Assembly (NCBI RefSeq): GCF_000003605.2
Contig: NW_003135338.1
Span: forward strand, 138,939-164,271
Direction of reading: 5' to 3'
DNA length: 25,333 bases
From: Saccoglossus kowalevskii
Lineage: Eukaryota; Hemichordata; Enteropneusta; Harrimaniidae
In this document: positions 1,055-25,333 of the stretch, piece by piece
How the letters are laid out: every line of letters begins with the position of its first letter
Position numbering within the stretch: position 1 is the stretch's first letter
Made by a program: the position numbers and the translations under genes
Notes under the pieces: generated by a model
Databases searched by the model: none
Told to the model about the DNA's origin: nothing
Seen by the model: only the letters and a program-made list of their open reading frames with translations

Positions 1055-4000
1055 GTAAGGATTGTGATTATCTAACATTTCTACTATATTTTAAACATCA
1101 AGCAAGAATGATCGCATTTGTTATCATAAAAGGCACAAGTACAATTAAATTTTTGGAAAGAGTTCCTTTTGTGTACCCCCCATCCCTAACCCTAACCCTA
1201 CCCTCCCCTCCAGCACTCCCCATTTAATTGTACATGCCCCTCCTAAGGACATCAATAGTTATCTAGAGGGGGCATATACAAATTAATTGGGTAACTGGGA
1301 GTGAGTGTTACAGTTAGGGTTAGGGATGGGGGTACAAAAGGAACTCTAGCCAAATTTTCTAATATCTAGGAGGTTGGTATTCTTGTTAAAAAATTTTAAA
1401 ACAAAAAATAATTTTGATTATTTAGACCTGGTAATCCACTTGAGGAAAAAAATTCCCAGTGTAAAAGCTGGTTATTGAGTTTTAAAATCAGGGTTTGAAA
1501 AGTAGAGCTTAGATGCAGAACCAGGTACATGTATTTTTGTTTGCAGACAAATTCAGTGAAAACACTGCCGCTGTCCTTTGACCATTGCTAGTACGTTTTG
1601 ATACATGCATTCTAGTTGAGTTAGCAGAGCTATTATTAGATCCTGCTGCGTAGTAGAAAATCTTACTTTTAAATATATTCTAAACATTTTTGTGAGTGAA
1701 TATTGTAAAATTTTGTAGCAGTGAAAATAACATTGGAGTCCTAAAGACAGCAAGGAATTCTCAGTGACTTTCACATGACTTTTGTCCTCACAACAATCAG
1801 AGAACATTTAGAGTTCTCAAAATGTTGTCTTCATTAAAATGTGAAAATTCCTCACAATATAAACATTATTTTTACTTTATTTTCTGTTTTTCATTACTTC
1901 AGAATTCACACGGTGAATTATTCACAGAAAAGTTATTTACAAAGTTTGTAGCAGAGTCTGGGTTTATTAGCATTAAAAATGGGTAAGTATATTTTATTTT
2001 AGTCTCACTGTGATGAGTGTTGTATTTCTCTACTTACATGCACAATCAGAGTCTATTTTCCGAGGAGCACTTCACTCACAACATACCTCATTCCTGACCC
2101 ATACTTTCCAAGGAGCATTTGACTCACAACATACCTCATTCCTGACCCATACTTTCCAAGGAGCATTTGACTCACTTCATACCTCATTCCTGATCCATAC
2201 TTTCCAAGGAGCACTTCACTCACAACTTAACTCATTCCTGACCCATACTTCCCAAGGAGCACTTGGCTCACCACATACCTCATTCCTGACCCATACTTTT
2301 CAAGGAGCACTTGACTCACAACGTACCTCATTCCTGACCCATACTTTCCGAGGAGCACTTGACCGACAACGTACCTCATTCCTGACCCATACTTTCCGAG
2401 GAGCACTTGACCCACAACGTACCTCATTCCTGACCCATACTTCCCAAGGAGCATTTGGCTCACGACTTACCTCATTCCTGACCCATACTTTCCAAGGAGC
2501 ACTTGACTCACAACGTACCTCATTCCTGACCCATACTTTCTGAGGAGCACTTGACTCACAACGTACCTCATTCCTGACCCATACTTTCAGAGTAGCACTT
2601 GACTCACAACGTACCTCATTCCTGACCCATGCTTCCCAAGGAGCATTTGGCTCACAACTTACCTCATTCCTGACCCATACTTTCCAAGAATCACTTGGCT
2701 CACTACATTTCTATATGTGCTTCAGCCTTTTAACTGTGATTATGTTTTTCATCAAGTGTTTCATATGTTGTACTGCTAGCTCTGTCGTGAGACGATATTA
2801 AACTCTCATTTACAAGTTTTGAATAATAAAATATATGGGGTTTGTTTTGTTCAGTGATGTGTTCTTTCTGTTTACTGTTATAATGATTAATGGATTACTG
2901 TGTGGTGGTTCATAAACGATTTTATGTTGTATTTGTCAAGTATTAATTTCTGGTAATGACAGGATCGTATTAAACCCTGTTAGCACAATGTTGTGAATTC
3001 ACTGTATTATTGATTGAAAAAGTGTTTGTTTCTATGGAAACTAAATCATTAACTATTGTTTGCAATATGTTTAATAGATTGCTAAATGCGATCAAAGCAT
3101 ATGGTTCTGTAAAAATGAAATTTAATTTGCCAACTGTTGTTAATTAGTCTTGAATGGGAAGTGAACAGATGATGCTACTATTACCAGTATGTATAAGACA
3201 TTCTGTGTTGACATTATCATATCTAGTACTCGCTTTCACAGATGCTCAGAGTCTCCCAGCTGATTTGACGGAGCCATATCTCACCGCCTGACATTCAATT
3301 ACTCAGTCTTGTTCTAGCTTACCACTTTAATTACTTACATCCTCGTTACTTATGGGGCATCATTGTGAGTGTTGCCCATTGTGAGTGTTGCCCCCATGGT
3401 TGCCCATTACAACCTTGACATATCTACCATTGCTGTCAACCCATCATTACAATTTCAATATACCCAAACATGTTAGCCCATCATCCAATAATACCCATCA
3501 TTTGGTCCAATCATTGTCACCACTTAAAACCCATCATTGCTGTTGATGCATTCATTGTTACCCACTTAAACCAATCATTGCTGTTGGCCCGTTATTGTCA
3601 CCCACATAAACCCATCATTGTCACCCACTTAAACCCATCATTGCTATTGGTTCAATCATTGTTGCCCACTTAAGCCTATCTTTGTTGTTGGCCCATCATC
3701 GCCACCCACTTAAGCCCATCATTGCTGTTGGCTCATCATTGAACCCTACTTAAGCCCATGATTGCTGTTGGCCCATCATCATCACCCACTGAAGCCCATC
3801 ATTGCTGTTGGCCCATTATTGCCACCCTTTTAAACCCACCATTGCCGTTGGCCCATCATCATCACCCACTTAAGCCCATCATTGTTGTTGGCCCGTCATT
3901 AAACCCCACTTAAGCCCATCATTGTTGTTGCCCCGTCATTAAACCCCACTTAAGCCCATCATTGTTGTTGGCCCGTCATTAAACCCCACTTAAGCCCATC

Positions 4001-7000
4001 ATTGTTGTTGGCCCGTCATTAAACCCTACTTAAGCCCATCATTGCTGTTGGCCCATCATTATAACCTACTTCAGCCCTCCATTGCTGTTGTCTCATCATT
4101 GTCTCCTCATTTAACCTATCATTGTCACTCATCGCGAACATTAGACCATGATCACTACTCATTTTTTTAGGGTTACTTATCATCATCGTCGTCCTTCCAG
4201 CATCACAAGTGTGCCTGGACGAGGGCGCTCTACAAGTATTAATTCGGCCACTACATCAGCATCTGAAGATGATGATACTGTTGCCTTACTGGTTGGTAAC
4301 AATAAAAACCAGGTCAGTAATAACTTTTAATCAAAACATTTAAATAAAATCTCAAGAAATTGCAGAAAACGTCAAAATATGTTTTGGTGGTATAAATTAC
4401 AGCACATTTATTGATAAAAAGAAAAATTTTCATTTGATGTTTTGTAATTTGTGATGGATTTTAATGGTGTAACTTATTTGTTTATAACCAACTTTCATTT
4501 TAGGTAAGAATAAAATATTTTTGTCTACAAAAAGTGATGTACCTTTGGGACCCACATGGCAATAGTTTTGAGAAACTTCATGGCTTAGATAAAGACACAC
4601 TATGTGCCAACTTCTATGATGACTACCATGGTTTCAGTGAAGAAGAACAAAGTAAAAGGTATGTATTAATTTAGGCTTGCTCTGTTTGTTGTCAGATATA
4701 TTTTAACCTGTGTTTCTAAGTCAGAAATGAGGACTCCTGTTTTGAGTCAGTTCGCCTGTGTGTTTGTACATGCCTGAATTGATTTTGTTTAAAGCTGGTC
4801 TGAGGCCAAAGGTTATGAAATCTGCTATATATGCATGTCAAATAATGATTGATAATGATTTGTGGCCTTTAGTCTCCAAAAACACTTAAAATCATCATGT
4901 GAAGAAATCATTAACCATTTCTCAGGCAAGCCTGGGGCAATTTTTTTCAAACTTAGTATTAAATAAAAATTGTGAATTTGATTACCATTTTTTGTTGGTA
5001 ACAACACATGTTTTTTTGACAGGTTTTGTTTCTGTAGTTAATGAGTTGACTACATTTCATTGTTTATAATTGACAGGGTCATTAAAAACTGAACAGGGAC
5101 TATGTCATCGACAATGACTTGTTAATTCAATGCAGGGGTTCTGTTGTCTCAAAAGTAGAGACATTTTATCTAAAATAGCAACTACGTGTTATCGAATATT
5201 TTTATTTGCCATATTTTGGGTGTAAAACAGTCAGTTTAACAGAAAACACTTTGTCTGGAATTGTAAGACAATTCAACGTTTTTTAGTTATCTTTGTATAA
5301 AAATGTGATTACAATTCTTTACAGATTGGCAGTGTATGGTAAAAATAGCATAGACGTTGAAGTGAAATCGTACGCAAAGCTGCTTTTTGAAGAGGTAGGT
5401 CAACTTCATTCCAGCATCTCTTCGAATATTTAGTGGTCAGACTCTCAAAATCAGGACATGGTCTAATGTTTTTTCAACCCCTAAAAACTATATTACTTTG
5501 GAAACAAAATATGTTGCCTATTGCGTCAGACAATTAAGTACATTTACTGTGTTTATTTATAGATATAGCCAGGTTTGATTATTAGAGAATATGTACATAT
5601 GATGGTTTCTCGTCTTGTTTGTGTTACGATTACTAGACCGGTTAGGAAACTTTCTTTCTATTTGAGAACCACAAAATTATCGATTATATCACAAAATTCG
5701 CACAGAAGTCGGTGATGATTCTATGTTGATTTTTCGACTTAATGAGCTGTATTTCTTGAATTTAGTAGACACACTTGAAAAACGAACAGAGATAGCAATA
5801 TAAGGGATGACGTCATAATAATTGGACACGCATCAAAGTGAAGTCGATGGATAATTTACAATAGTTTCCTAATCGTTCTTCTAGTAACCATGGTTGAGTA
5901 TAGCATAATCTAATTAATTTCTTGAGTACTGAAAATGTATTTAATTTTGCTGCTAAAAGAAAAAATTTCCTAAATTGAATCTACTTTAACATCTAAACTT
6001 GCAGTAAAACTCGCTTCTGCACTGGAGAATCTGTGAATTTAAAAATTTGGTGAATATGATTAAATATCAAAATAGTGAAAATAAATACCAGTGGAAGTTG
6101 ATGCTTTTATTGTATTTTAAAATATTTCTTCTACTGTATCGGCATTATCGGCAGTGTTCGACAATAACAAAATTACAATGTAGTCAGACCTGACTATATC
6201 ATTAATTTCTTCTACACTGTTTTTTTTTTTCTTTTTCCTCATGGCTCTGCTTATATCACATGTCCATGCATGCTCTGTTGTCACGTAATCACATAGAGAC
6301 CACATTAAAAATTAAAAACACTGACAGTTGTTTCCATAACTACATGTATCCTTGGGAATTGAAATATATAGCTGGTTGGTTTGAATTAATATTATTTGCT
6401 TTTTCACGCATTTTTTTCCGAATTTTTTTGCAATGCACCATTCAGCATTTCATTCATAAGGTGCAAACAAATACTATGTTTCTGGGGAACATGATTCATC
6501 CCATTTTATGATTTACATAAAATGATAGCATGACAGTAAATATAAAAATTTGCAGAAGCCATTCCATCCAAAAACAACAATAAAATCTTGTCACATTTGG
6601 GAAAACAGTGTCCAGAAACATATTTTTCACTGGGGCTAAATATTTTTTTGTTTGTTTTTTTCATAATATTTACCACTGGCTGCTCATGCTGCTCATAGCT
6701 TGTAATATTTCTCATCTTATAATCAAGTCAGTGAATTGAAAATTTGTGTTAATGTTGGCTTTATTTATTTACATGTTTTTTGTGTTCAATTTTTTCTACC
6801 GCAGTCATCGAAAGATGGAGATGAAACAGTAGGTTTTCCTGAAGAAAAAAAATGGGAACTTAGTTAAATTCTGGATTAATCTTTGCAAACCAAATTTGTT
6901 GGAAATTGTTTTATTTCTGGATATTTTTGTTTAATTGTATCAAAAATCCAATATAGCTTTGCAGATCTTGTGCTAGACGTCTGTCATTGATACAGATTCA

Positions 7001-13000: not shown

Positions 13001-16000
13001 AAGGAGAGTTGGTCAGATCGATTTTATATCCCAAACCTCTGGGTTTCAAATTTTATAAAGATGCCATGAAATTCATTGGTGTGCTTGCTATACTGGGTAA
13101 GTTGCCTTCATCTTTACTGATGTTGGGAGTGTAACTGTTCCGTCCTGCTCCACACACTAACAGAATATGGTGTGTCTTAGTTGTTGCCATGACAATCTTA
13201 CATTTGCTCGCAATAGGGTGATCACTTGCTTGGCAGCAATAACAACATCTGATGAGTCGGCTTCTTTTCTCTGAAAAGTACCTCTTTGAGATTTGTCAAA
13301 AAATTGTGTGATGTTACTTTATACTTGAAAATTGTGTGCAATGAAAGCAGTTTACAATATTGTGATTATTTTAAAGCACCTGGAAGCAATATTCACTGAA
13401 AAGAAGAATTTTGGGTTGATAAATATAAATAATCCTGTCTGAACTCAGTAGTCTTAGCGAAGTGAAGAAAAGGGGTTTATACAACATGTGATATTATGTA
13501 CTACCATGTATTTATAAGATGACGATTTCCGCATACCACCAGACAGTTGTATCAAAATACACTTATCTTATGAATTCTTGATAATACTTTGTCTTGTCTC
13601 TTTCAGCTCTGCTCGGGTTTGCATATACACTGGTAATATTTATAAGAGATGAGGTAAGTACAATAGTCTATTGTTTCCTTTCTCTGGTTAAGTTTGTACT
13701 ATAGACCATCATCATTTATTGATAATGCACACAAATTGACAAAGTATTTTATTTATTTTATTACCATGACAATTATTCACTATTCACAGAATAGTTCTGT
13801 TTACACTATGCTGCTGATCCCTTGACATCCTGTGTCAGCCCACTGTCTTTCCACAACCCAATTTTGTTCCAACTCCTCCTACTAACAATAACATAGACAG
13901 TAAGTTTCAGTTCTTTAAAACATCAAACTGATGTTTTTATTCATAGTTTGAACACTACATCGCTAGAAAAACATGGCAGCCCCCTCTCTACATTGTTTCT
14001 CATGACCCATGACCTAACTATGACCCATCTTGAACATAACTCAAACCAATCCAACAACACCCCACCACAACCCCATCCAACCTCACCATACTGTAAACCT
14101 AACTTCAACCAACCCACTTTATCTAATCCAATCCTACCATTTCACCATGTTTTTACATTATGCATTTTTAGTTATACAACACTAGTCTGGACACCTTACA
14201 CTAGACAAAATCTGGTTATTATCAACAGGTTCCTGTATTAATTAAAGCGTATCTTACACTAGACAAAATCTGGTTATTATCAACAGGTTCCTGTATTAAT
14301 TAAAGCGTATCTTGCACCAGACAAAATCTAGTTATTATCAACAGGTTCCTGTTAAACATATCTTGCACCAGACAAAATCTGGTTATTATCAAGAGGTTCC
14401 TGTTAAACATATCTTGCACCAGACAAAATCTGGTTATTATCAACAGGTTCCTGTTAAACATATCTTGCACCAGACAAAATCTGGTTATTATCAAGAGGTT
14501 CCTGTTAAACATATCTTGCACCAGACAAAATCTAACAATTTGTTGACTTGTAATGGATATGTTTGTTATTATCAACAGGTTCCTGTAAAACATATCATCT
14601 TCAAAGCATTGGATATCTTCACCATTGTAGTGCCGCCTGCATTGCCTGCTGCCATGACAGTGGGCACAGTGTATGCACAGAATAGACTCAAAAGACGAGG
14701 AATATTTTGTATTAGTCCACCAAGAATCAACGTGTGTGGGAATATTAAACTGTTCTGCTTTGATAAGGTATGTTGAAATCAAGGGCAAATACAAATCTGA
14801 GCTAAAAACATGCATGTTAAAATGAAAACTAAGTGCAAATTATGTGTGGAAGGTCTCGTCTGAAGTGATTGTATTTTCGGTTTAATGACTTTGTTTTTTA
14901 GCATGCTATCATCACAGATGATGGATGATGATTGTCAGTCATCCATCCATTAAAAGTACCGGGTAACATTTTTAATTTCTTCTTGAAAATACCAACCAAA
15001 TTATTTGAAGTATAGGTACCTTGGGTAGACCACTAGCATTTCAAGATAATATCTTTAATTCTCTAATTTTAGCAACTATTTTTAAAAATTATATTTTTAT
15101 CTTCTCCTTGGGAACTAGCGGAACAGATTTACCCGATTTGAATGATTTTGTGACAATATTATTTATTTTTAACAGATATGAACAAGTTGTTTATTGAAGT
15201 TAGATAGACATGTCCTTAACTACCTCCTTGTAGGTAAACTGCATTTTGTCTTTTGGGTGTGCATTAAGTTATTTGGCTACCACAAAGTTCTTATAAGACA
15301 GCACAGCTAATTTGACTGCCAGGTCACTAAAAATGTCACCCAGCTTTTCAGATTTTCTTCAAACCAACTGGTTATAGAATTTATAAAGTTAGACATTCAT
15401 ATTTTCATCAGGCATCAGGCATTTGTGGAGTGTTGTCTGTCATTAACTGGTGCAATTAACTGGAACAAGTCCTCAACAATACTATGCAAAACTTTTTCAC
15501 TTTTTCCATGCAGACTGGAACATTAACAGAAGACGGATTGGATCTATGGGGCGTTGTACAGTTACAACAAGATCACTTACTAAAAGCAGTACAGAATGTT
15601 GATGAGTTGCCTAGGGGGCCTTTTTTGGCTGGCATGGCAACCTGTCATTCGCTGACAATGATTGATGGAAATCTGACAGGTGACCCCCTAGACTTGAAAA
15701 TGTTTGAAGCCACCAATTGGGTATGTAGAAGATTAGTGGAAGCATTCATACTTTTTATTCCATCAGTGTTTCATTTTAGTCATGTCGGCGGTAGTCAGAA
15801 ACAAGGACTTGAGTTTTGGTCTCTGTCAATCATTGTTTGTTCTTCTTGCGTCATTTCTCGGATATCCCGGGCTGATTTTGCTGGTGCAAAAACAAGCGAT
15901 AATAGGAGACATGTGCACATTGATTGGTTCGAGCACTCTTGAAAAGAACCAACAAAATTAACATTCGCAATTAACAGGCATGCCTGAGGTGATTTCATTG

Positions 16001-22000: not shown

Positions 22001-24430
22001 CTTTGGAAATGTTAATTAAGTTCTGTTTATGTTTTAGTAAATTAATTACAATATCTTCTACATCATATGATACTTAAAATTTTGAAAAGACAAAAATGGA
22101 AAACAATTCTGTTTCCCAAAATATTGGCTAAATATTACATTAAAACAAAATTGCTGATTTTCTGACATGCAAATCAAGGGTAATTGGTAGGGTCAAACCC
22201 AAACTATATTTCGCGGGAACTTTCACAAATTCTGACGTCGAATTGAAACCAAAGGCGATGGAAGTTGTGGAAAGTGTAAGGGAAAAGAAAGATTTAATAG
22301 TTTCCGTGCCAACTGGGTATGGGACGCCGTCTTGAATAACCAAACACCTGTGTATTGATATGTGGCAAATCATAGCGTGAAAAATCATGTGTGGCAGAGG
22401 TGTTAGCCTGCCTACGCTAAGAACTCTGGGATGGAGAGTGGAAAAGTCATGTGTGGCAGAGGTGTTAGCCTGTCTACGCTAAGAACTCTGGGATGGAGAG
22501 TGGAAAAGTCATGTGTGGCAGAGGTGTTAGCCTGCCTACGCTAAGAACTCTGGGATGGAGAGTGGAAAAGTCATGTGTGGCAGAGGTGTTAGCCTGTCTA
22601 CGCTAAGAACTCTGGGATGGAGAGTGGAAAAGTCATGTGTGGCAGAGGTGTTAGCCTGTCTACGCTAAGAACTCTGGGATGGAGAGTGGAAAACCCATTG
22701 TTACTGTGAATGTGTGCATATTTTTTTGAATAAGAACAAGCAGGGGCTCTCTAGGGATGAATAGCTACCGGTAATCCATAACAAAAATGAACATCTAAAG
22801 ATTTTTGAAAGCGATTTATGTTTCATGTGTTTTCTACTCCTGTCCACCTCACTATAGAGCTTGTAGATTACTGCTTTACACATTCATTTATATTGCATGT
22901 ATTCATCGTCTGATCTCACCTCTCAGGGCACTGTTTTTAATAAAAGTTGCTCTCAGGGATGATTTTACTGTAAATTTATTTAATTATTTAACCCTAATCT
23001 TGTCCAGTCTCGTGTATTTTTACAGTTAATCTTGCTGTTCACTGACATCAAATAAATCCTTGCATAAAATTACAAGTTTCCCAGTATTTCCCCTAAGCAA
23101 ATGTGGCACTGAGAAATGTTGTGATATTATTTCAAAAAATCTATTTGAATCGTGTGTTTTTGAATACAAAATGCTTAAAACTAAAGAAAATGTTTTTCAG
23201 AGTGCTCAATTACTCTTAGAAACCTGATCTTGCAAAAGAATGAAATAGCTGGGAAAATTAATACTTTTACAGTATGAACCACTGATACTACTTTGTTGTG
23301 ATGATACTGGGTTTTGTAGCTAAGCGACCAGAGTGTACAGCTCTTCTTTTTCGACACTGGAACCACTGACTTCCTTGTCGCTATCGTTTCAGATTGTTGT
23401 CAAAGGATGCGTCTTTGCTCGTATGGCACCCGATCAGAAGAGTCAACTTGTTGAAGCTCTGCAGGAAATTGAGTGAGTTCTCTTGATCTATTTTTTGCTC
23501 AGTAACTTCATGTGTTGGGCATTATAAAAAACATAGGTGTTTCACACAAATAAATGCTGTAGAATCATGCATGTTTTTGTAAACCACTCAGTAAGCATTG
23601 CAGATGACTGTTTAATGAATTTTCTTGCAATACATATCCAAAACATGGTATCCGAACGATCAATTAACCAAACAAATACGTCACCGCCCACTGTGTTCGG
23701 ATAATCGATGTTTGACTGTATATGCTTCTCTATTGGGTGATTCACTTGTAATGGATAAAAACAAAGAAATATTTATAATAAGGGTATACAACTCAGATAA
23801 CCTTGTAAGATAATATGCAATGAAGATCTCGTCTCACGAGATCTATATGCGTTTATTCAAACAAATTTTAACCAGTGGCATTGTAAAACGGTGAACACTT
23901 GTTCACACATACATAGAAATTATAACAAGATTATTGCCATTTATATAAGCAAAAAACATCCAAAGACACTAGCAAAACAGTCTCATATGAGCGCTAACCA
24001 GTTTTTTCATAGAATCAGTCATTTTCATTAGTTTGTACATTTGTCTGGTGATTTCATGATTTCCTAAATTTGTGTGAAATCTTCATTGCATATCATTCAT
24101 TACCAGTGAATATAAAGTTCAATATGGGATAAAGAGGATTAATGCTTTTCCAGTTATTGCTACTGAAGTTAACCGATTTGAAAAATATTATTATAGAAAT
24201 ATGACTACATTTTCTTTTTTGTATCACGTTAAGTCCTTAAAGGAAAAACTAACTGATAATTATGTACCTCCCTGTAGTTATATTGTTGGTATGTGCGGAG
24301 ATGGAGCCAATGACTGTGGAGCGTTGAAAACTGCACACGCTGGCATTTCACTGTCAGAAGCTGAAGCATCCGTGGCATCACCGTTTACATCCAATACTCC
24401 GAACATCACTTGCGTACCAAAAGTCATCAG
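887..24430 (+). CDS. ATP13A3: P5B-type ATPase (ATP13A3-like), 21 exons, partial at both ends
   Basis: A split gene whose joined exons are 887-1054, 1903-1982, 4171-4312, 4504-4658, 5325-5394, 8594-8728, 9413-9479, 10426-10557, 11486-11659, 12986-13096, 13607-13653, 14579-14767, 15514-15720, 16379-16483, 17100-17253, 17917-18037, 18768-18892, 19728-19909, 21826-21933, 23393-23472 and 24278-24430. All introns begin GT and end AG, and the phases fit at every junction with no stop. Visible P-type ATPase motifs are TGES (about residue 316), PPALPAA in M4 (446-452), DKTGT (Asp489), KGSPE (631-635), MVTGD (725-729) and GDGAND (858-863), numbered from the first traced codon. PPALPAA is the P5B signature, unlike PPELP of P5A. 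Family knowledge: P5B pumps sit in late endosomes or lysosomes, and ATP13A2 and ATP13A3 move polyamines. The start codon and M5-M10 are outside the window. Which ATP13A2-5 paralogue this is remains an inference. Confidence 0.95.
1147..1358. mobile_element. Foldback/MITE-like inverted repeat with telomere-like motif in its arms
   Basis: The left arm reads AAATTTTTGGAAAGAGTTCC, then TTTTGTGTAC, a C run, ATCCCTAACCCTAACCCT. The right arm is its near-complement: agttagggttagggatgggg, then gtacaaaaggaactctagcc and aaatttt. Inner segments also pair (ccccatttaattgtacatgc with gcatatacaaattaattggg). The whole 212 bp would fold into one long hairpin with its apex near 1250. No coding capacity is visible. 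It is probably a non-autonomous DNA element in intron 1. Confidence 0.75.
1903..1982 (+). CDS. ATP13A3: ATP13A3-like exon 2: N-terminal cytosolic domain
   Basis: This exon has 80 bases: 26 codons plus two bases (GG) that complete a Gly with the next exon. The acceptor is tcattacttcag and the donor GTAAGT. The encoded [20 protein letters not shown] aligns loosely with the TTDEFKMWFCAKIR region of ATP13A3. If the following intron were retained, translation would stop at once (GGG TAA). The 48-bp repeat reading frame downstream is therefore not an extension of this exon. Confidence 0.8.
2064..2707. repeat. 48-bp minisatellite, about 13.4 copies, intron 2
   Basis: The unit begins ggagcacttgactcacaacg, continues tacctcattcctgacccata, and ends ctttccaa. 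Consecutive copies start every 48 bases, with substitutions but no length change. Because 48 is a multiple of three, long spurious reading frames run through it on both strands. The plus-strand one (2010-2543) repeats [16 protein letters not shown]. It is intronic: retention from exon 2 would meet a stop immediately. Confidence 0.93.
2708..3360. other. Intron 2 sequence between the two minisatellites
   Basis: This is AT-rich intronic sequence with no splice-bounded reading frame or repeat that I can recognise. Confidence 0.5.
3490..4130. repeat. 40-bp minisatellite, about 16 copies, intron 2
   Basis: The unit is cccatcattgttgttggccc followed by gtcattaaaccccacttaag. Copies are degenerate at the left (traces start near 3360). 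They are nearly identical in the core at 3875, 3915, 3955 and 3995, and degenerate again to about 4130. The array stops about 40 bases before the acceptor of exon 3. Confidence 0.9.
4171..4312 (+). CDS. ATP13A3: ATP13A3-like exon 3: Ser/Thr-rich linker
   Basis: This exon has 142 bases; the first base completes a split Gly and 47 codons follow. The acceptor atttttttag is strong and the donor is GTCAGT. The product is low-complexity: a basic start (YHHRRP), many Ser and Thr residues, then [10 protein letters not shown]. It fills the variable linker between the N-terminal hydrophobic segment and the conserved IRYF motif of P5B proteins. Little sequence is shared with vertebrate paralogues here, so it is supported mainly by splice sites and frame. 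The exon starts about 40 bases after the end of the 40-bp minisatellite. Confidence 0.8.
4504..4658 (+). CDS. ATP13A3: ATP13A3-like exon 4: conserved N-terminal domain
   Basis: This exon has 155 bases: 51 codons plus two bases of a split Arg. It encodes [16 protein letters not shown], then [20 protein letters not shown]. This aligns with the Q-I-R-Y-F-x-x-x-x-x-x-Y-x-W and F-x-x-L-x-G-L-D blocks of ATP13A3, the cytosolic region just before M1. The acceptor is cattttag and the donor GTATGT. The exon itself begins GTAAGA, which looks like a donor, but the reading frame and homology continue through it. Confidence 0.92.
4659..5324. other. Intron 4, with a short dispersed-repeat tail
   Basis: This is a non-coding intron. 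The stretch near 5094-5123 (cagggactatgtcatcgaca followed by atgacttgtt) resembles the end of the repeat at 1-262 and the segment near 18722. Nothing else is recognised. Confidence 0.5.
5325..5394 (+). CDS. ATP13A3: ATP13A3-like exon 5: pre-M1 segment
   Basis: This exon has 70 bases: one base closes a split Arg and 23 codons follow. It encodes [20 protein letters not shown] then FEE, matching the R-x-x-x-Y-G-x-N-x-I-x-V-x-V-x-S-x-x-x-L-L-x-x-E block that precedes M1 in P5 ATPases. The acceptor is ttctttacag and the donor GTAGGT. The next intron (5395-8593) is the longest in the window. Confidence 0.93.
5395..7625. other. Intron 5, left part: no recognised feature
   Basis: This is AT-rich intronic sequence with several T homopolymers and a G run at about 7150-7159. 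I see no exon with family similarity. The protein alignment joins exon 5 directly to exon 6, so none is expected. Confidence 0.5.
7626..7860. mobile_element. TTAA-bounded MITE, copy 1
   Basis: The element starts TTAACCTTTTCACAACCAG and ends CTAGTGGTGAACAGGTTAA. These ends are imperfect inverted repeats (12 of 15 positions inside the TTAA). TTAA at both edges fits the target duplication of piggyBac-like elements. It shares its interior with 8062-8305, including aaccctaattttggagccaa and gtgcagactataaa. No coding capacity is seen. Confidence 0.7.
8062..8305. mobile_element. TTAA-bounded MITE, copy 2
   Basis: A second member of the family, 201 bases downstream of copy 1 and in the same orientation. 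It starts TTAAGCTTTTCACCAACCG and ends CTGGTGGTGAAAAGGTTAA. Shared interior words include ccctaattttggagccaaca, cagttttcactcaaaaa and gtgcagactataaa. Divergence between the copies suggests independent insertion or an old duplication. Confidence 0.7.
8594..8728 (+). CDS. ATP13A3: ATP13A3-like exon 6: M1-M2 transmembrane pair
   Basis: This exon has 45 codons, phase 0 at both ends. It encodes [20 protein letters not shown], then a four-Tyr run and [20 protein letters not shown]. This matches the V-L-N-P-F-Y-I-F-Q start of M1 and the Y-Y-Y-Y start of M2 in ATP13A3. The two hydrophobic helices are joined by a short acidic turn (AEE). The acceptor is ttttattgcag and the donor GTGAGT. Confidence 0.95.
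8955..9349. mobile_element. Harbinger-type MITE with TTA target duplication
   Basis: The left end is GGCCAGACTTTTTTTATTCC and the right end is GGATAATAAAAGTCTGGCC, an inverted pair. TTA lies directly outside both ends (8952-8954 and 9350-9352). A 3-bp TWA duplication with termini starting GG is typical of PIF/Harbinger elements. The interior is non-coding and includes aagatggcgggcgcgag. It sits 63 bases upstream of exon 7. Confidence 0.75.
9413..9479 (+). CDS. ATP13A3: ATP13A3-like exon 7: start of actuator domain
   Basis: This exon has 67 bases: 22 codons plus one base of a split Ser. It encodes [20 protein letters not shown] then DQ, which aligns with the L-x-x-M-V-A-x-x-x-x-V-x-V opening of the A domain. 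The donor GTAAGT follows directly after CAAT. A 395-bp Harbinger-type MITE ends 63 bases upstream of the acceptor. Confidence 0.88.
9480..10088. other. Intron 7, left part: no recognised feature
   Basis: AT-rich intronic sequence. I find no repeat or coding segment before the LINE fragment. Confidence 0.45.
10089..10368 (-). pseudogene. Decayed non-LTR retrotransposon fragment (C-terminus of endonuclease/reverse transcriptase)
   Basis: Read on the minus strand, this encodes [20 protein letters not shown], then [11 protein letters not shown], a stop within W-stop-R-T-V-E-K-E, then [20 protein letters not shown] and [16 protein letters not shown] before two stops. W-I-G-H-V-L-R, G-K-R-x-R-G-R-P-K-x-x-W-R-R-T and A-x-D-R-x-x-W are the standard C-terminal blocks of LINE polyproteins in marine invertebrates. 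The in-frame TGA is where the family has Arg (CGA), consistent with CpG decay. Upstream coding sequence is lost, as expected of 5' truncation or erosion. The exact clade is not resolved. Confidence 0.8.
10426..10557 (+). CDS. ATP13A3: ATP13A3-like exon 8: actuator domain, first half
   Basis: This exon has 132 bases: two bases close a split Ser, 43 codons follow, and one base of the TGES Gly remains. It encodes [20 protein letters not shown] then AVLVGG and [12 protein letters not shown], the P-x-x-G-x-x-x-x-C-D block and the NESMLTGE start are classic A-domain elements. The acceptor is tttttcctccag. A LINE fragment lies directly upstream in the intron. Confidence 0.96.
10558..11285. other. 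Intron 8, left part: no recognised feature
   Basis: Non-coding AT-rich sequence. The phrase ggggatgcagcttctattt near 10750 recurs as agggatgcagcttctaattt near 10822, a small local duplication. Confidence 0.45.
11290..11461. mobile_element. Short inverted-repeat element (MITE-like)
   Basis: The left side attaaaccgagggagtcctc then acctgcacatgcg is the imperfect complement of the right side catgtgtgcgcaggtgacaa then ccctcctgctttaaat. The 170-bp element ends about 25 bases upstream of exon 9. Its interior is somewhat GC-richer than the flanking intron. No coding capacity is seen. Confidence 0.55.
11486..11659 (+). CDS. ATP13A3: ATP13A3-like exon 9: actuator domain, TGES completion
   Basis: This exon has 174 bases. 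Its first two bases finish the Gly of TGES, and 57 codons follow. It encodes [13 protein letters not shown], then [20 protein letters not shown] and [17 protein letters not shown] carries the dephosphorylation Glu. [10 protein letters not shown]-x-x-I-Q-T-R is a P5B hallmark. The last base starts the Gly of RTGFST. The acceptor is cattacag and the donor GTAAGT. Confidence 0.97.
11660..12656. other. Intron 9, left part: no firm feature
   Basis: Non-coding. A stretch near 12070-12095 (gagtgcatacttcgcggtat) resembles one arm of the hairpin at 12657-12743 and may be a solo or truncated relative. Confidence 0.4.
12657..12743. mobile_element. Hairpin element, member 1 (GTGCATACTT family)
   Basis: Arms of 31 bases at 12657-12687 and 12713-12743 are inverted with few mismatches (left ends CTCAAAGTATGCAC, right begins GTGCATACTTTGAG). 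The right arm and its flank (tttgtgcatactt, ataacctcatatt) match the hairpin at 19412-19507, so both belong to one family. Element borders outside the arms were not defined. Confidence 0.6.
12986..13096 (+). CDS. ATP13A3: ATP13A3-like exon 10: end of A domain and start of M3
   Basis: This exon has 111 bases. It encodes [20 protein letters not shown], then [16 protein letters not shown]. This is the T-G-F[16 protein letters not shown] block, conserved in P5 ATPases and leading into M3. Two bases close the preceding Gly and one base opens an Ala codon. The acceptor is tattcttgtag and the donor GTAAGT. Confidence 0.96.
13097..13606. other. Intron 10: nothing recognised
   Basis: No repeat, inverted repeat or coding segment that I can support. 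Confidence 0.45.
13607..13653 (+). CDS. ATP13A3: ATP13A3-like exon 11: end of M3
   Basis: A 47-base micro-exon: two bases close an Ala, then 15 codons encode [15 protein letters not shown]. It continues the hydrophobic M3 helix from exon 10 and ends in the short loop before M4, where the family has x-I-x-x-E. The acceptor is gtctctttcag and the donor GTAAGT. It ends in phase 0, so the next exon can begin at any in-frame acceptor. That matters because of the repeated acceptors downstream. Confidence 0.92.
14040..14140. repeat. Low-complexity C/A-rich tract, intron 11
   Basis: The plus strand is rich in CCA, AACC and ATCC words with few G (for example aacaccccaccacaacccca). This is simple-sequence-like, with no strict period seen. 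Confidence 0.5.
14196..14578 (+). repeat. Tandem array of duplicated 3' splice sites upstream of exon 12
   Basis: Two 58-bp copies (14196, 14254), four 51-bp copies (14312, 14363, 14414, 14465) and a last copy from 14516 whose middle is replaced by a unique segment (14534-14564). Each 51-bp copy holds ttgcaccagacaaaatctgg, ttattatcaacag, then GTTCCTGTTAAACATATC. That last part is the first 18 bases of exon 12 with one change. Acceptor-like AGs end at 14228, 14286, 14344, 14395, 14446 and 14497; the normal one is at 14578. From the last four upstream sites the frame is open into exon 12. From the first two it meets a stop. Confidence 0.95.
14530..14578 (+). promoter_or_regulatory. Likely functional branch point and acceptor for exon 12
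   Basis: The unique segment in the last repeat copy supplies tctaac (14531-14536), a good match to the metazoan branch-point consensus, 43 bases before the AG at 14577-14578, and a T-richer tract (gtttgttattatcaacag). The upstream copies have tctggtt or tctagtt at the same point. This favours the last acceptor as the main site. The branch point is an inference. Confidence 0.5.
14579..14767 (+). CDS. ATP13A3: ATP13A3-like exon 12: M4 with PPALPAA and start of P domain
   Basis: This exon has 63 codons, phase 0 at both ends. It encodes [20 protein letters not shown], then [20 protein letters not shown] and [20 protein letters not shown] followed by FDK. M4 carries the P5B PPALPAA motif that lines the substrate path. 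The conserved GIFCISP-x-R-I-N-x-C-G block follows. The exon ends inside the phosphorylation motif, DK of DKTGT, with the catalytic Asp at residue 489. I chose the acceptor at 14577-14578 because it agrees with the family length. Four upstream copies of the same acceptor are also in frame (see the tandem array). Confidence 0.94.
14768..15513. other. Intron 12: nothing recognised
   Basis: A short GATGATG-type simple repeat lies near 14920. Otherwise I see no supported feature. This intron separates DK from TGT of the catalytic motif. Confidence 0.45.
15514..15720 (+). CDS. ATP13A3: ATP13A3-like exon 13: TGT of the phosphorylation site and start of N domain
   Basis: This exon has 69 codons, phase 0 at both ends. 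It begins [14 protein letters not shown], completing [15 protein letters not shown]. It continues to [20 protein letters not shown] and [14 protein letters not shown]-x-C-H-S-L and [10 protein letters not shown] are P5-ATPase signatures near the start of the nucleotide-binding domain. The acceptor is ttttccatgcag and the donor GTATGT. Confidence 0.97.
15721..16378. other. Intron 13, with an unplaced GC-richer stretch
   Basis: Bases about 15780-15990 are less AT-rich than their surroundings and may be an old transposon fragment, but I could identify neither ends nor family. The frame open past exon 13 to 15942 is simple read-through. Confidence 0.35.
16379..16483 (+). CDS. ATP13A3: ATP13A3-like exon 14: N-domain variable segment
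   Basis: This exon has 35 codons, phase 0. It encodes [20 protein letters not shown] then [15 protein letters not shown]. It aligns with the L-E-E ... I-M-P-T-V-V-x-P region of ATP13A3 and then diverges, as expected for this variable loop. The acceptor is taaattctag and the donor GTAAGA. Confidence 0.9.
16920..17042 (+). repeat. Direct repeat left of exon 15
   Basis: This 123-bp copy is diverged at its left (acacattgcgttgtag, ttttacgatt). A 55-bp core (16988-17042) differs from the second copy by one base: aacattagctgtc, then aatatagataaatattcagg, gctgaaattgaacaacgttc. The second copy is at 17445-17577. Exon 15 lies between them. Confidence 0.85.
17100..17253 (+). CDS. ATP13A3: ATP13A3-like exon 15: N domain with KGSPE
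   Basis: This exon has 154 bases: 51 codons plus one base of a split Val. It encodes [20 protein letters not shown], then [39 protein letters not shown]-x-L-Q-R-M is nearly invariant in P5B proteins. KGSPE is the ATP-binding KGAPE motif with Ser for Ala. Nearly identical 55-bp direct repeats flank this exon, at 16988-17042 and 17523-17577. Its length is not a multiple of three, so losing it would shift the frame. Confidence 0.96.
17445..17577 (+). repeat. Direct repeat right of exon 15
   Basis: The second copy of the repeat described at 16920-17042, in the same orientation and 535 bases downstream in the conserved core (17523-17577). Its left part has small insertions relative to copy 1. Confidence 0.85.
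17917..18037 (+). CDS. ATP13A3: ATP13A3-like exon 16: N-domain C-terminal part
   Basis: This exon has 121 bases with split codons at both ends (Val and Arg). It encodes [20 protein letters not shown], then [20 protein letters not shown][18 protein letters not shown] is a conserved P-type ATPase block at the N/P boundary. The acceptor follows a long T run (tttttttttgtaacag). The donor is GTATGT. Confidence 0.95.
18128..18745 (+). repeat. Diverged dispersed repeat in intron 16, related to 1-262
   Basis: Shared words with the window start are atgtatctgtttcacgatcc, a ggcc..agcagccatttta block, ttccagagcaagatctcgct and agattttgttcaaaattggt. A second unit (gcacatgcatttgtttcgtc, aagatggc, cagccattttta) follows near 18408. 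Near 18722 comes gacagggactatgtcatcg, as at 5094. Divergence is too high to define exact borders. Confidence 0.5.
18768..18892 (+). CDS. ATP13A3: ATP13A3-like exon 17: P-domain hinge
   Basis: This exon has 125 bases; it completes an Arg, has 41 codons and ends with the first base of the MVTGD Gly. It encodes [20 protein letters not shown] then [10 protein letters not shown] and [10 protein letters not shown]-x-G-L-x-I-M-Q-N-x-L-K-x-E-T and [11 protein letters not shown] match the family closely. The acceptor is caaatttag and the donor GTGAGT. The last piece of a dispersed repeat (motif gacagggactatgtcatcg) lies about 20-45 bases upstream of the acceptor. Confidence 0.96.
19412..19507. mobile_element. 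Hairpin element, member 2 (GTGCATACTT family)
   Basis: 27-base arms at 19412-19438 (TTATCACTAGGATACTGCCA then AGTATGC) and 19481-19507 are inverted repeats with one mismatch, enclosing a 42-base loop. The right flank (ataacctcgtattata) matches the flank of the hairpin in intron 9. Another small inverted pair (acgccatat near 19189, atatggcgt near 19254) lies upstream and may belong to the same insertion. Confidence 0.7.
19728..19909 (+). CDS. ATP13A3: ATP13A3-like exon 18: P domain, GDNMLTA
   Basis: This exon has 182 bases: two bases complete Gly, then 60 codons. It encodes [20 protein letters not shown], then [20 protein letters not shown] and an acidic tail ending TEQQ. G-D-x-M-L-T-A-x-S-V-A-x-D-C-G-M is diagnostic. 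The tail corresponds to a variable acidic insert in the family. The donor CAA|GTAAAT is weaker than others in the gene, so a slightly different 3' boundary is possible. The chosen one keeps phase with exon 19. Confidence 0.93.
19925..20232. mobile_element. Possible third, diverged TTAA-bounded element
   Basis: The stretch starts TTAACCGTTTCAACTGTG and ends GGCACACAAAAGGTTAA. Its interior resembles the pair in intron 5 (aatcctaaatttgaacctga, cagtttttgattaaaaaatt, agcagattataaatattttg). The ends pair only over CCTTTT, so membership rests on the interior likeness and TTAA edges. Confidence 0.45.
20576..21270. mobile_element. CACGTG-rich inverted-repeat element
   Basis: The left end (acgttcatgttacgggatct then cggcacgtgccga) is the near-complement of the right end (tcccggcacgtgccgagatc then tctaacgtgaacgcc). 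The self-complementary word CACGTG occurs exactly at 20599, 21114, 21214 and 21242, usually within GGCACGTGCCG. Related forms (gactcggctcgtgtcgaaat, ttggcacatgtcgactc) also occur. The interior has an open frame (20523-20873) ending [11 protein letters not shown], which I cannot assign. It is probably a non-autonomous DNA transposon of about 695 bp. Confidence 0.6.
21271..21825. other. Intron 18, right part: nothing recognised
   Basis: AT-rich non-coding sequence up to the acceptor of exon 19. Confidence 0.45.
21826..21933 (+). CDS. ATP13A3: ATP13A3-like exon 19: P-domain insert
   Basis: This exon has 36 codons, phase 0. It encodes [20 protein letters not shown] then [20 protein letters not shown]-x-x-G-K-S-F-x-V-I-x-x-H-F matches ATP13A3 well. 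The acceptor is cattataaacag and the donor GTAAAG. The 1.9-kb intron before it carries a TTAA-bounded element and a CACGTG-rich element. Confidence 0.92.
22192..22335 (+). pseudogene. Fragment of a RecQ-like helicase domain
   Basis: The frame from GTC at 22192 encodes [20 protein letters not shown], then [20 protein letters not shown] and TGYGTPS before TGA at 22333-22335. L-K-P-K-x-x-E-V-V-x-S-V, then [11 protein letters not shown], looks like motif 0 and motif I (Walker A) of RecQ-type helicases. The family has P-T-G-Y-G-K-S. Here G-T-P-S removes the catalytic Lys, and a stop follows. It is a dead fragment, probably a retrocopy or a piece carried by a transposon. It has no splice sites linking it to the ATPase. 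Confidence 0.6.
22383..22692. repeat. 62-bp tandem array, 5 copies, intron 19
   Basis: The unit is catgtgtggcagaggtgtta then gcctgtctacgctaagaact, ctgggatggagagtgg, and aaaagt. Copies start at 22386, 22448, 22510, 22572 and 22634 and are almost identical. The main variant is gcctgCctac in copies 1 and 3 against gcctgTctac in 2, 4 and 5. High identity implies recent expansion. Confidence 0.93.
22693..23392. other. Intron 19, right part: nothing recognised
   Basis: No repeat or coding segment that I can support between the 62-bp array and exon 20. Confidence 0.45.
23393..23472 (+). CDS. ATP13A3: ATP13A3-like exon 20: P domain, ARMAPDQK
   Basis: This exon has 80 bases: 26 codons plus two bases of a split Asp. 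It encodes [20 protein letters not shown] then [16 protein letters not shown]-x-Q-L-x-E-A-L-Q is one of the most conserved P5 blocks. The acceptor is ctatcgtttcag and the donor GTGAGT. Confidence 0.96.
23810..24096. mobile_element. Short inverted-repeat element (MITE-like), intron 20
   Basis: The left terminus ATAATATGCAATGAAGAT (23810-23827) and right terminus ATCTTCATTGCATATCAT (24079-24096) are inverted with 17 of 18 matches, 287 bp in all. Just inside the left end is a perfect hairpin, AGATCTCGT-ctc-ACGAGATCT. Another (gtgaac-actt-gttcac) follows near 23892. No coding capacity is seen. Confidence 0.65.
24278..24430 (+). CDS. ATP13A3: ATP13A3-like exon 21: GDGAND motif, last exon in window
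   Basis: This exon has 153 bases: it completes Asp, has 50 codons and ends with two bases of an Arg codon. It encodes [20 protein letters not shown], then [20 protein letters not shown] and [21 protein letters not shown] binds Mg2+ in the P domain. The acceptor is cctccctgtag and the donor GTAGTG (mediocre). The family continues with R-E-G-R-A-A-L and M5-M10. I found no such exon in the remaining 903 bases, so the gene runs off the right edge. Confidence 0.95.
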
Positions 24431-24942: not shown

Positions 24943-25333
24943 CGACTGTTCCACTGCTATCTCAAGAACCATACATCGGTTTTTGATGAAACTTGGTGCA
25001 TAGATGCTCTGGGCCAATGCGCAGATTTGATTAGGTTTTGGTGAAAATCCATGCTCGTTAATTACCTAATTTGCATGATAGTTAGCTAATTTTTAGCTGT
25101 TCTATGACTGTTCCACTGATATCTAAAGAACCACTCATTGGATTTTGATGAAACTTGGTACATAGATGCTCTGAACATATGCGCAGATTTGATTAATTTT
25201 TGGTAATAATCCGTGCATATTAATTACCTAATTTGCATGATAATTAGCTATTTTTTAGTGGTTCCATGACTGTTCCACTGATATCTAAACAACCACTCAT
25301 TGGATTTTGATGAAACTTGGTACATAGATGCTC
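24943..25333. repeat. 162-bp tandem repeat, at least 2.4 copies, running off the edge
   Basis: The unit contains gactgttccactgatatcta, aagaaccactcattggattt, tgatgaaacttggtacatag, atgctctg, cgcagatttgatta and ttaattacctaatttgcatg. gactgttcc starts at 24944, 25106 and 25268, exactly 162 apart. The first copy is the most diverged. The array continues past the window. Confidence 0.9.

Follow-up and report, generated by a model that had tools for sequence, protein, structure and literature searches.

Minisatellites whose units reach across an intron-exon boundary have been described under the name of mirages, which was given to such repeats in the Adh3 gene of lancelets; two haplotypes had six and three units (PMC3087553). 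In the lancelet gene BflGb6, the 3' end of one intron and the 5' portion of the exon that follows it have been duplicated in tandem, and many of the units contain AG/GT signals (PMC3087553), and the repeats of the lancelet Adh, TnC and PGBD5 genes also include splice sites (PMC3902484). The Adh3 data, together with RT-PCR of globin, suggest that regular splicing is not interfered with in lancelets, and the same authors state that AG/GT signals inside the repeats could act as cryptic splice sites (PMC3087553). The Adh and TnC mirages are reported to "not generate aberrant mRNAs", and the same has been suggested for PGBD5 (PMC3902484). Outside the lancelets, the potato RdRp gene PGSC0003DMG402000361 has gained an intron by tandem duplication across an intron-exon boundary (PMC4974935), and internal tandem repeats located at exon-intron boundaries in human segmental duplications are regarded as minisatellites able to alter splicing (PMC2812944). 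Within the excerpts covered by a narrow literature search, no mirages outside lancelets were found, and no claim of a first report is made here.

The array described below lies in a gene for a P5B ATPase within a window of 25,333 nucleotides, by which is meant the whole stretch of DNA that was analysed; positions refer to its forward strand unless a contig is named. Twenty-one exons of the host gene were placed by eye and give a single open frame when joined. The closest solved relatives of the product are ATP13A2 chains, and the translation of the joined exons contains both PPALP in TM4 and DKTG, which marks the gene as encoding an ATP13A2-like P5B ATPase. Exon 11 (13607..13653) ends in GATGAG before gtaagt, and the joined frame of 21 exons bears out the statement of the first-pass annotation that it ends in phase 0. 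Exon joining and the copy map place intron 11, of 925 nt, at 13654..14578, with the array at its 3' end. Exon 12 (14579..14767) encodes the start of TM4, with the PPALP motif, and continues to CFDK; its product of 63 residues aligns over its full length with ATP13A2 chains (E about 5e-23), occupying positions 452-514 in several of them. Because this alignment runs from end to end and the 21 exons join in one frame, the exon that starts at 14579 is the genuine exon 12. Its start corresponds to ATP13A2 residue 452, in what we take to be the short loop between M3 and M4, and this was correctly named as the insertion point beforehand, since any added residues would enter the loop before the position of E456, four residues away. 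In the human protein, E456 has been shown to lie where polyamines enter from the lumen, and the conserved residues around that site include D463 (PMC10082790). Farther upstream in intron 11, ahead of the array, positions 13886-14025 match contigs C2041, C2956 and C361 at 76-86% identity and are probably a dispersed repeat.

The last 384 bases of intron 11 are a tandem array, in which one partial copy of the intron's own acceptor region is followed by six copies arranged head to tail. TRF finds a period of 51 bp at 14242-14533 (5.6 copies, 93% matches, score 463) and also a period of 102 bp at 14195-14533 (score 496). The partial first copy (14195..14228), seen both by TRF and in the copy map, consists of the intron-end part only and ends in CAACAG. 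The copy map continues with two copies of 58 bp (14229..14286 and 14287..14344), three copies of 51 bp (14345..14395, 14396..14446 and 14447..14497) and a last copy of 81 bp (14498..14578), which comprises an exon-like stretch of 18 nt and the intact intron end. The three 51-bp copies are identical apart from CAACAG versus CAAGAG at their ends, and the copies at 14345, 14396, 14447 and 14498 each begin with GTTCCTGTTAAACATATC. The candidate sites that precede these four copies alternate between CAACAG (14345, 14447) and CAAGAG (14396, 14498), which means that two of the four are GAG sites with AAG two bases upstream; the alternation fits the 102-bp TRF period and points to a dimer as the most recently copied unit. 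The first-pass annotation had recognized the amplification of a 3' splice site with the start of its exon, and this was right, as the copies span the boundary. Its tandem array is real and has the period of 51 bp, with six copies instead of the four that it counted, the two upstream 58-bp copies having been omitted; its acceptor-like AG followed by GTTCCTGTTAAACATATC is present at all four sites, two of which end in GAG.

A match of the array DNA to the genuine boundary covers a block of 32 nt that is common to the units (14565..14596, contig positions 153503-153534, 97% identity). Set against the genuine junction, the unit agrees without a break over the final 14 bases of the intron and at 17 of the 18 exon bases. 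The identity with the genuine intron end then breaks off because the genuine end has 30 extra bases (14534..14563, with the gap placed to within one or two bases), and before this 30-bp segment the genuine intron end again matches the unit. Since the unit matches on both sides of the segment, it is equivalent to the boundary minus 14534-14563. Thus a unit of 33 intron-end bases plus 18 exon bases, as previously proposed, is correct in spanning the boundary; only the last 14 of the intron bases match unbroken, and the rest correspond to sequence 30 bp further upstream. The 30-bp segment, which also holds TTGAC, completes with the bases preceding it a branch-point-like CTAAC (14532-14536), the second A of which is 44 nt before exon 12. 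The 51-bp unit is without some bases of this match, the best candidate branch point of the genuine site, and the segment is retained in the 81-bp copy; either the units may have lost it or the real site may have acquired it.

This array, in which tandem units span an intron-exon boundary and adjoin the authentic boundary, is a mirage-type minisatellite and so belongs to a known kind. The earlier description of such an arrangement as unusual has to be toned down accordingly, boundary-spanning minisatellites being already known as the mirages of lancelets (PMC3087553, PMC3902484). The unit length of 51 bp here compares with reported lengths of 10-72 bp in lancelet Adh3 and 150-160 bp in BflGb6. 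The array differs from the lancelet mirages in that it occupies another gene, its unit is without the branch-point segment, its copies are in frame, and its host, judging by the mitochondrial code, probably belongs to another phylum. The potato duplicate kept its branch site, polypyrimidine tract and acceptor, and its splicing was documented by 106 RNA-seq reads (PMC4974935), and the human repeats were judged by comparing transcripts between paralogues (PMC2812944), whereas the units described here are without the branch-point segment and are judged by genomic sequence.

The strength of each candidate acceptor was estimated with a matrix of 20 intron bases plus one exon base, trained on the 20 other acceptors of the same gene; the acceptor of exon 12 was never in the training set, and leave-one-out values were obtained for 20 true acceptors with the matrix and for 19 once a branch-point term was included and exon 1 dropped. 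The combined score adds to the matrix score the best yTnAy match found in the AG-free zone plus 15 nt, a rule for the zone that follows PMC1431707; the branch-point weights were assigned rather than trained, and the matrix represents 20 sites of one gene. Decoys for the matrix alone were 892 AGs, those of the array among them, from beyond the first 30 nt of each intron, and decoys for the combined score were 794 intronic AGs from outside the array and beyond the first 130 nt of each intron. With the matrix, 14579 scores 7.82, close to the median of the left-out true acceptors (7.9; lowest 2.29; n=20), and the sites at 14345, 14396, 14447 and 14498 score 2.87, -4.33, 0.78 and -4.33, the two lowest values being those of the GAG sites with AAG two bases before (14396 and 14498). 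The combined score of 14579 is 14.2, which is reached by 0.3% of the 794 decoys and is above 15 of the 19 true acceptors. The combined scores of the four copies are, in the same order, 6.35, -0.86, 4.26 and -0.86, reached by 12%, 52%, 23% and 52% of the 794 intronic AGs; 14345 is above three of the 19 true acceptors and 14447 above one, and 14396 and 14498 are below all 19. Of the array AGs that were scored, the one at 14321 ranks highest (6.57, with 11% of decoys as high, and above three of the 19 true acceptors). As they outscore three, three and one of the 19 true acceptors, respectively, 14345, 14321 and 14447 remain weak candidates.

According to the scanning model, splicing takes the first AG that follows the branch point, and an AG no more than about 12-15 nt away from that point can be bypassed (PMC1431707). 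The AG-free zone is 54 nt long at 14579 as against 13-24 nt at the copies and 23-93 nt in the 20 true introns, so that a zone of 24 nt is low yet within the range of true introns. Only 14579 combines the CTAAC match, an AG-free zone of 54 nt and CAG, for which reason splicing is most likely to occur there. On these grounds it is likely that the array is an ordinary mirage-type minisatellite, the copies of which are intronic and act at most as low-level cryptic acceptors. On this view, tandem duplication would have placed, upstream of the real exon, copies of a segment that joins the intron 11 end to the initial 18 bases of exon 12; slippage or unequal exchange would then have multiplied a version from which the 30-bp branch-point segment is absent; and the pre-mRNA would be spliced at 14579, with the array copies staying in the intron. 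The two upstream copies at 14229 and 14287 are out of frame and run into stops, as is expected of unconstrained intron sequence, and the array is probably inert in splicing.

The frame of the copies bears on a different reading, in which they would serve as alternative acceptors and give rise to P5B isoforms with 27-78 extra residues (or 86, from 14321) in the loop before TM4. As had been predicted, the frame is open from 14345, 14396, 14447 and 14498 to the end of exon 12, and their use would add 78, 61, 44 and 27 codons, respectively; the predicted totals of residues are right, although the description of the additions as repeats of a 17-mer fails at the last step, which adds 27 residues that are not a 17-mer. 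In addition, each copy from 14287 on has a second AG, as CACCAG (14321, 14372, 14423, 14474 and 14525), and all five are in frame and open; 14321, which lies within the second 58-bp copy and was absent from the earlier list of sites, would add 86 residues. The chance that both blocks (51 and 81 bp) are multiples of three and open is 0.008 by shuffles and 0.022 under a model of shared sequence, and such a coincidence of 1-2%, recognized after the fact, is mild evidence for alternative use. Also in its favour, 14345 and 14321 outscore three of the 19 true acceptors. Several points weigh against this reading: GAG stands at two of the four sites; the CTAAC present at the real site is absent from the 51-bp units; scores at least as high as those of 14321 and the four sites are attained by 11-52% of intronic AGs; and a loop of repeat-dependent length four residues before the position of E456 would probably disturb the pump. 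Production of such isoforms is therefore considered unlikely, and the ready-made alternative-splicing ladder of the first-pass annotation is not supported, 12-52% of intronic AGs scoring as high as the sites proposed for it. It seems quite unlikely, too, that the array, as a mirage outside lancelets with a 17-codon period, lets a set of acceptors varying with repeat number insert 17-residue repeats where the polyamine pump opens to the lumen, to an extent that differs between tissues or individuals.

The out-of-frame copies allow a further reading, in which occasional use of 14229 or 14287 as decoy acceptors would yield frameshifted mRNA that is decayed, lowering expression. These two copies have the best branch-point match of the array copies, a CTTAC whose A lies 31 nt upstream, and translation from them would meet a stop after 24 and 14 codons, respectively; however, their combined score of 6.49 is reached by 12% of the 794 intronic AGs, and lancelet mirages are reported as not disturbing splicing (PMC3087553, PMC3902484), which leaves a decoy function very unlikely. 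One lancelet mirage appeared to be wrongly assembled in a draft genome, according to a supplement legend (PMC3087553), and the copy number here could likewise have been collapsed or inflated in assembly, but the copies of the array differ from each other at several positions and by length class, and an artefact is most improbable. Inert intronic copies, with splicing at 14579, are thus the preferred reading.

The array is confined to this locus as far as the searches extend. The 18-mer that starts the unit has four exact occurrences in the 572-Mb assembly, in every case within this array; comparison of the array DNA with the assembly found no second locus, with match counts that are lower bounds; and the unit has no matches in viral contigs. 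Among 11 stretches of viral contigs and 132 of prokaryote contigs that fit a pattern for relatives of exon 12, none was confirmed. No retrocopy or second haplotype that would reveal the spliced form of the exon 11-12 region appeared among five matches (its own locus, the paralogue on contig C202 and three short pieces of other contigs) or, in a second search, among six matches (three of this gene and three of C202), these counts again being lower bounds. Contig C202 carries a second P5B ATPase gene at about 303-312 kb. In this paralogue the exon of TM4 is preceded, at the same codon boundary, by an acceptor with a T-rich tract; neither the donor nor exon 11 of the paralogue could be placed. 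TRF finds no array in 10 kb around this acceptor, and no good copy of the exon start lies upstream of it, the best ungapped match being 11/18. From the presence of an acceptor at the same codon boundary in a paralogue that is free of the array, it follows that intron 11 is probably old, with the array added to it locally. Gain of the intron from the repeats was also considered and is rejected because the acceptor of the paralogue is at the same codon boundary.

In a census of the window, 17 TRF rows were obtained, of which 11 were merged into seven arrays with a period of at least 25 and six short-period rows were dropped. The seven arrays cover 9.5% of the window, and 0.43 such arrays would be expected by chance to span an exon boundary with 10 nt on each side. 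Other minisatellites of the window are at 2057-2703 (48 bp), 3507-4124 (about 40 bp), 22379-22693 (62 bp) and 24944-25333 (162 bp), either between exons of the same gene or beyond the last exon placed. A 25-bp array of 2.2 copies at 822-877 stops 9 nt short of exon 1, which starts at 887, without spanning the boundary. The flanks and the paralogue, 28.7 kb in all, hold one weak array at the TRF minimum score of 50, from which it appears that the density of minisatellites is local.

The mitochondrial contig of the assembly (C4830, 17,037 bp, with 26 tRNA predictions by ARAGORN) gives an indication of the host. In the matched part of COX1, aligned with three chains, five of the eight ATA codons are at Ile positions, three at Leu or Val and none at Met, and the sole AAA codon is at a Lys position. 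Other AAA codons stand at what are presumably conserved Lys positions in cytochrome b and ND1, and one AGA in ND1 at what we take to be a Ser position. COX1 is on the strand opposite to ten other translated protein-gene frames, with gene names assigned by eye. Lancelet mitochondria read ATA as Met, and the combination of ATA as Ile with AAA as Lys is that of hemichordates. Thus the reading of ATA as Ile argues against the lancelet code and that of AAA as Lys against the echinoderm code, and the mitochondrial code suggests a host phylum other than that of lancelets, perhaps the hemichordates. With this finding, a minisatellite that spans a boundary in the manner of the lancelet mirages is seen in a genome with a seemingly non-lancelet mitochondrial code. 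The array constitutes a natural test of how the spliceosome chooses among near-identical acceptors located beside the real one, and a copy that regained a branch point would provide a basis from which an exon could be extended or an intron gained.
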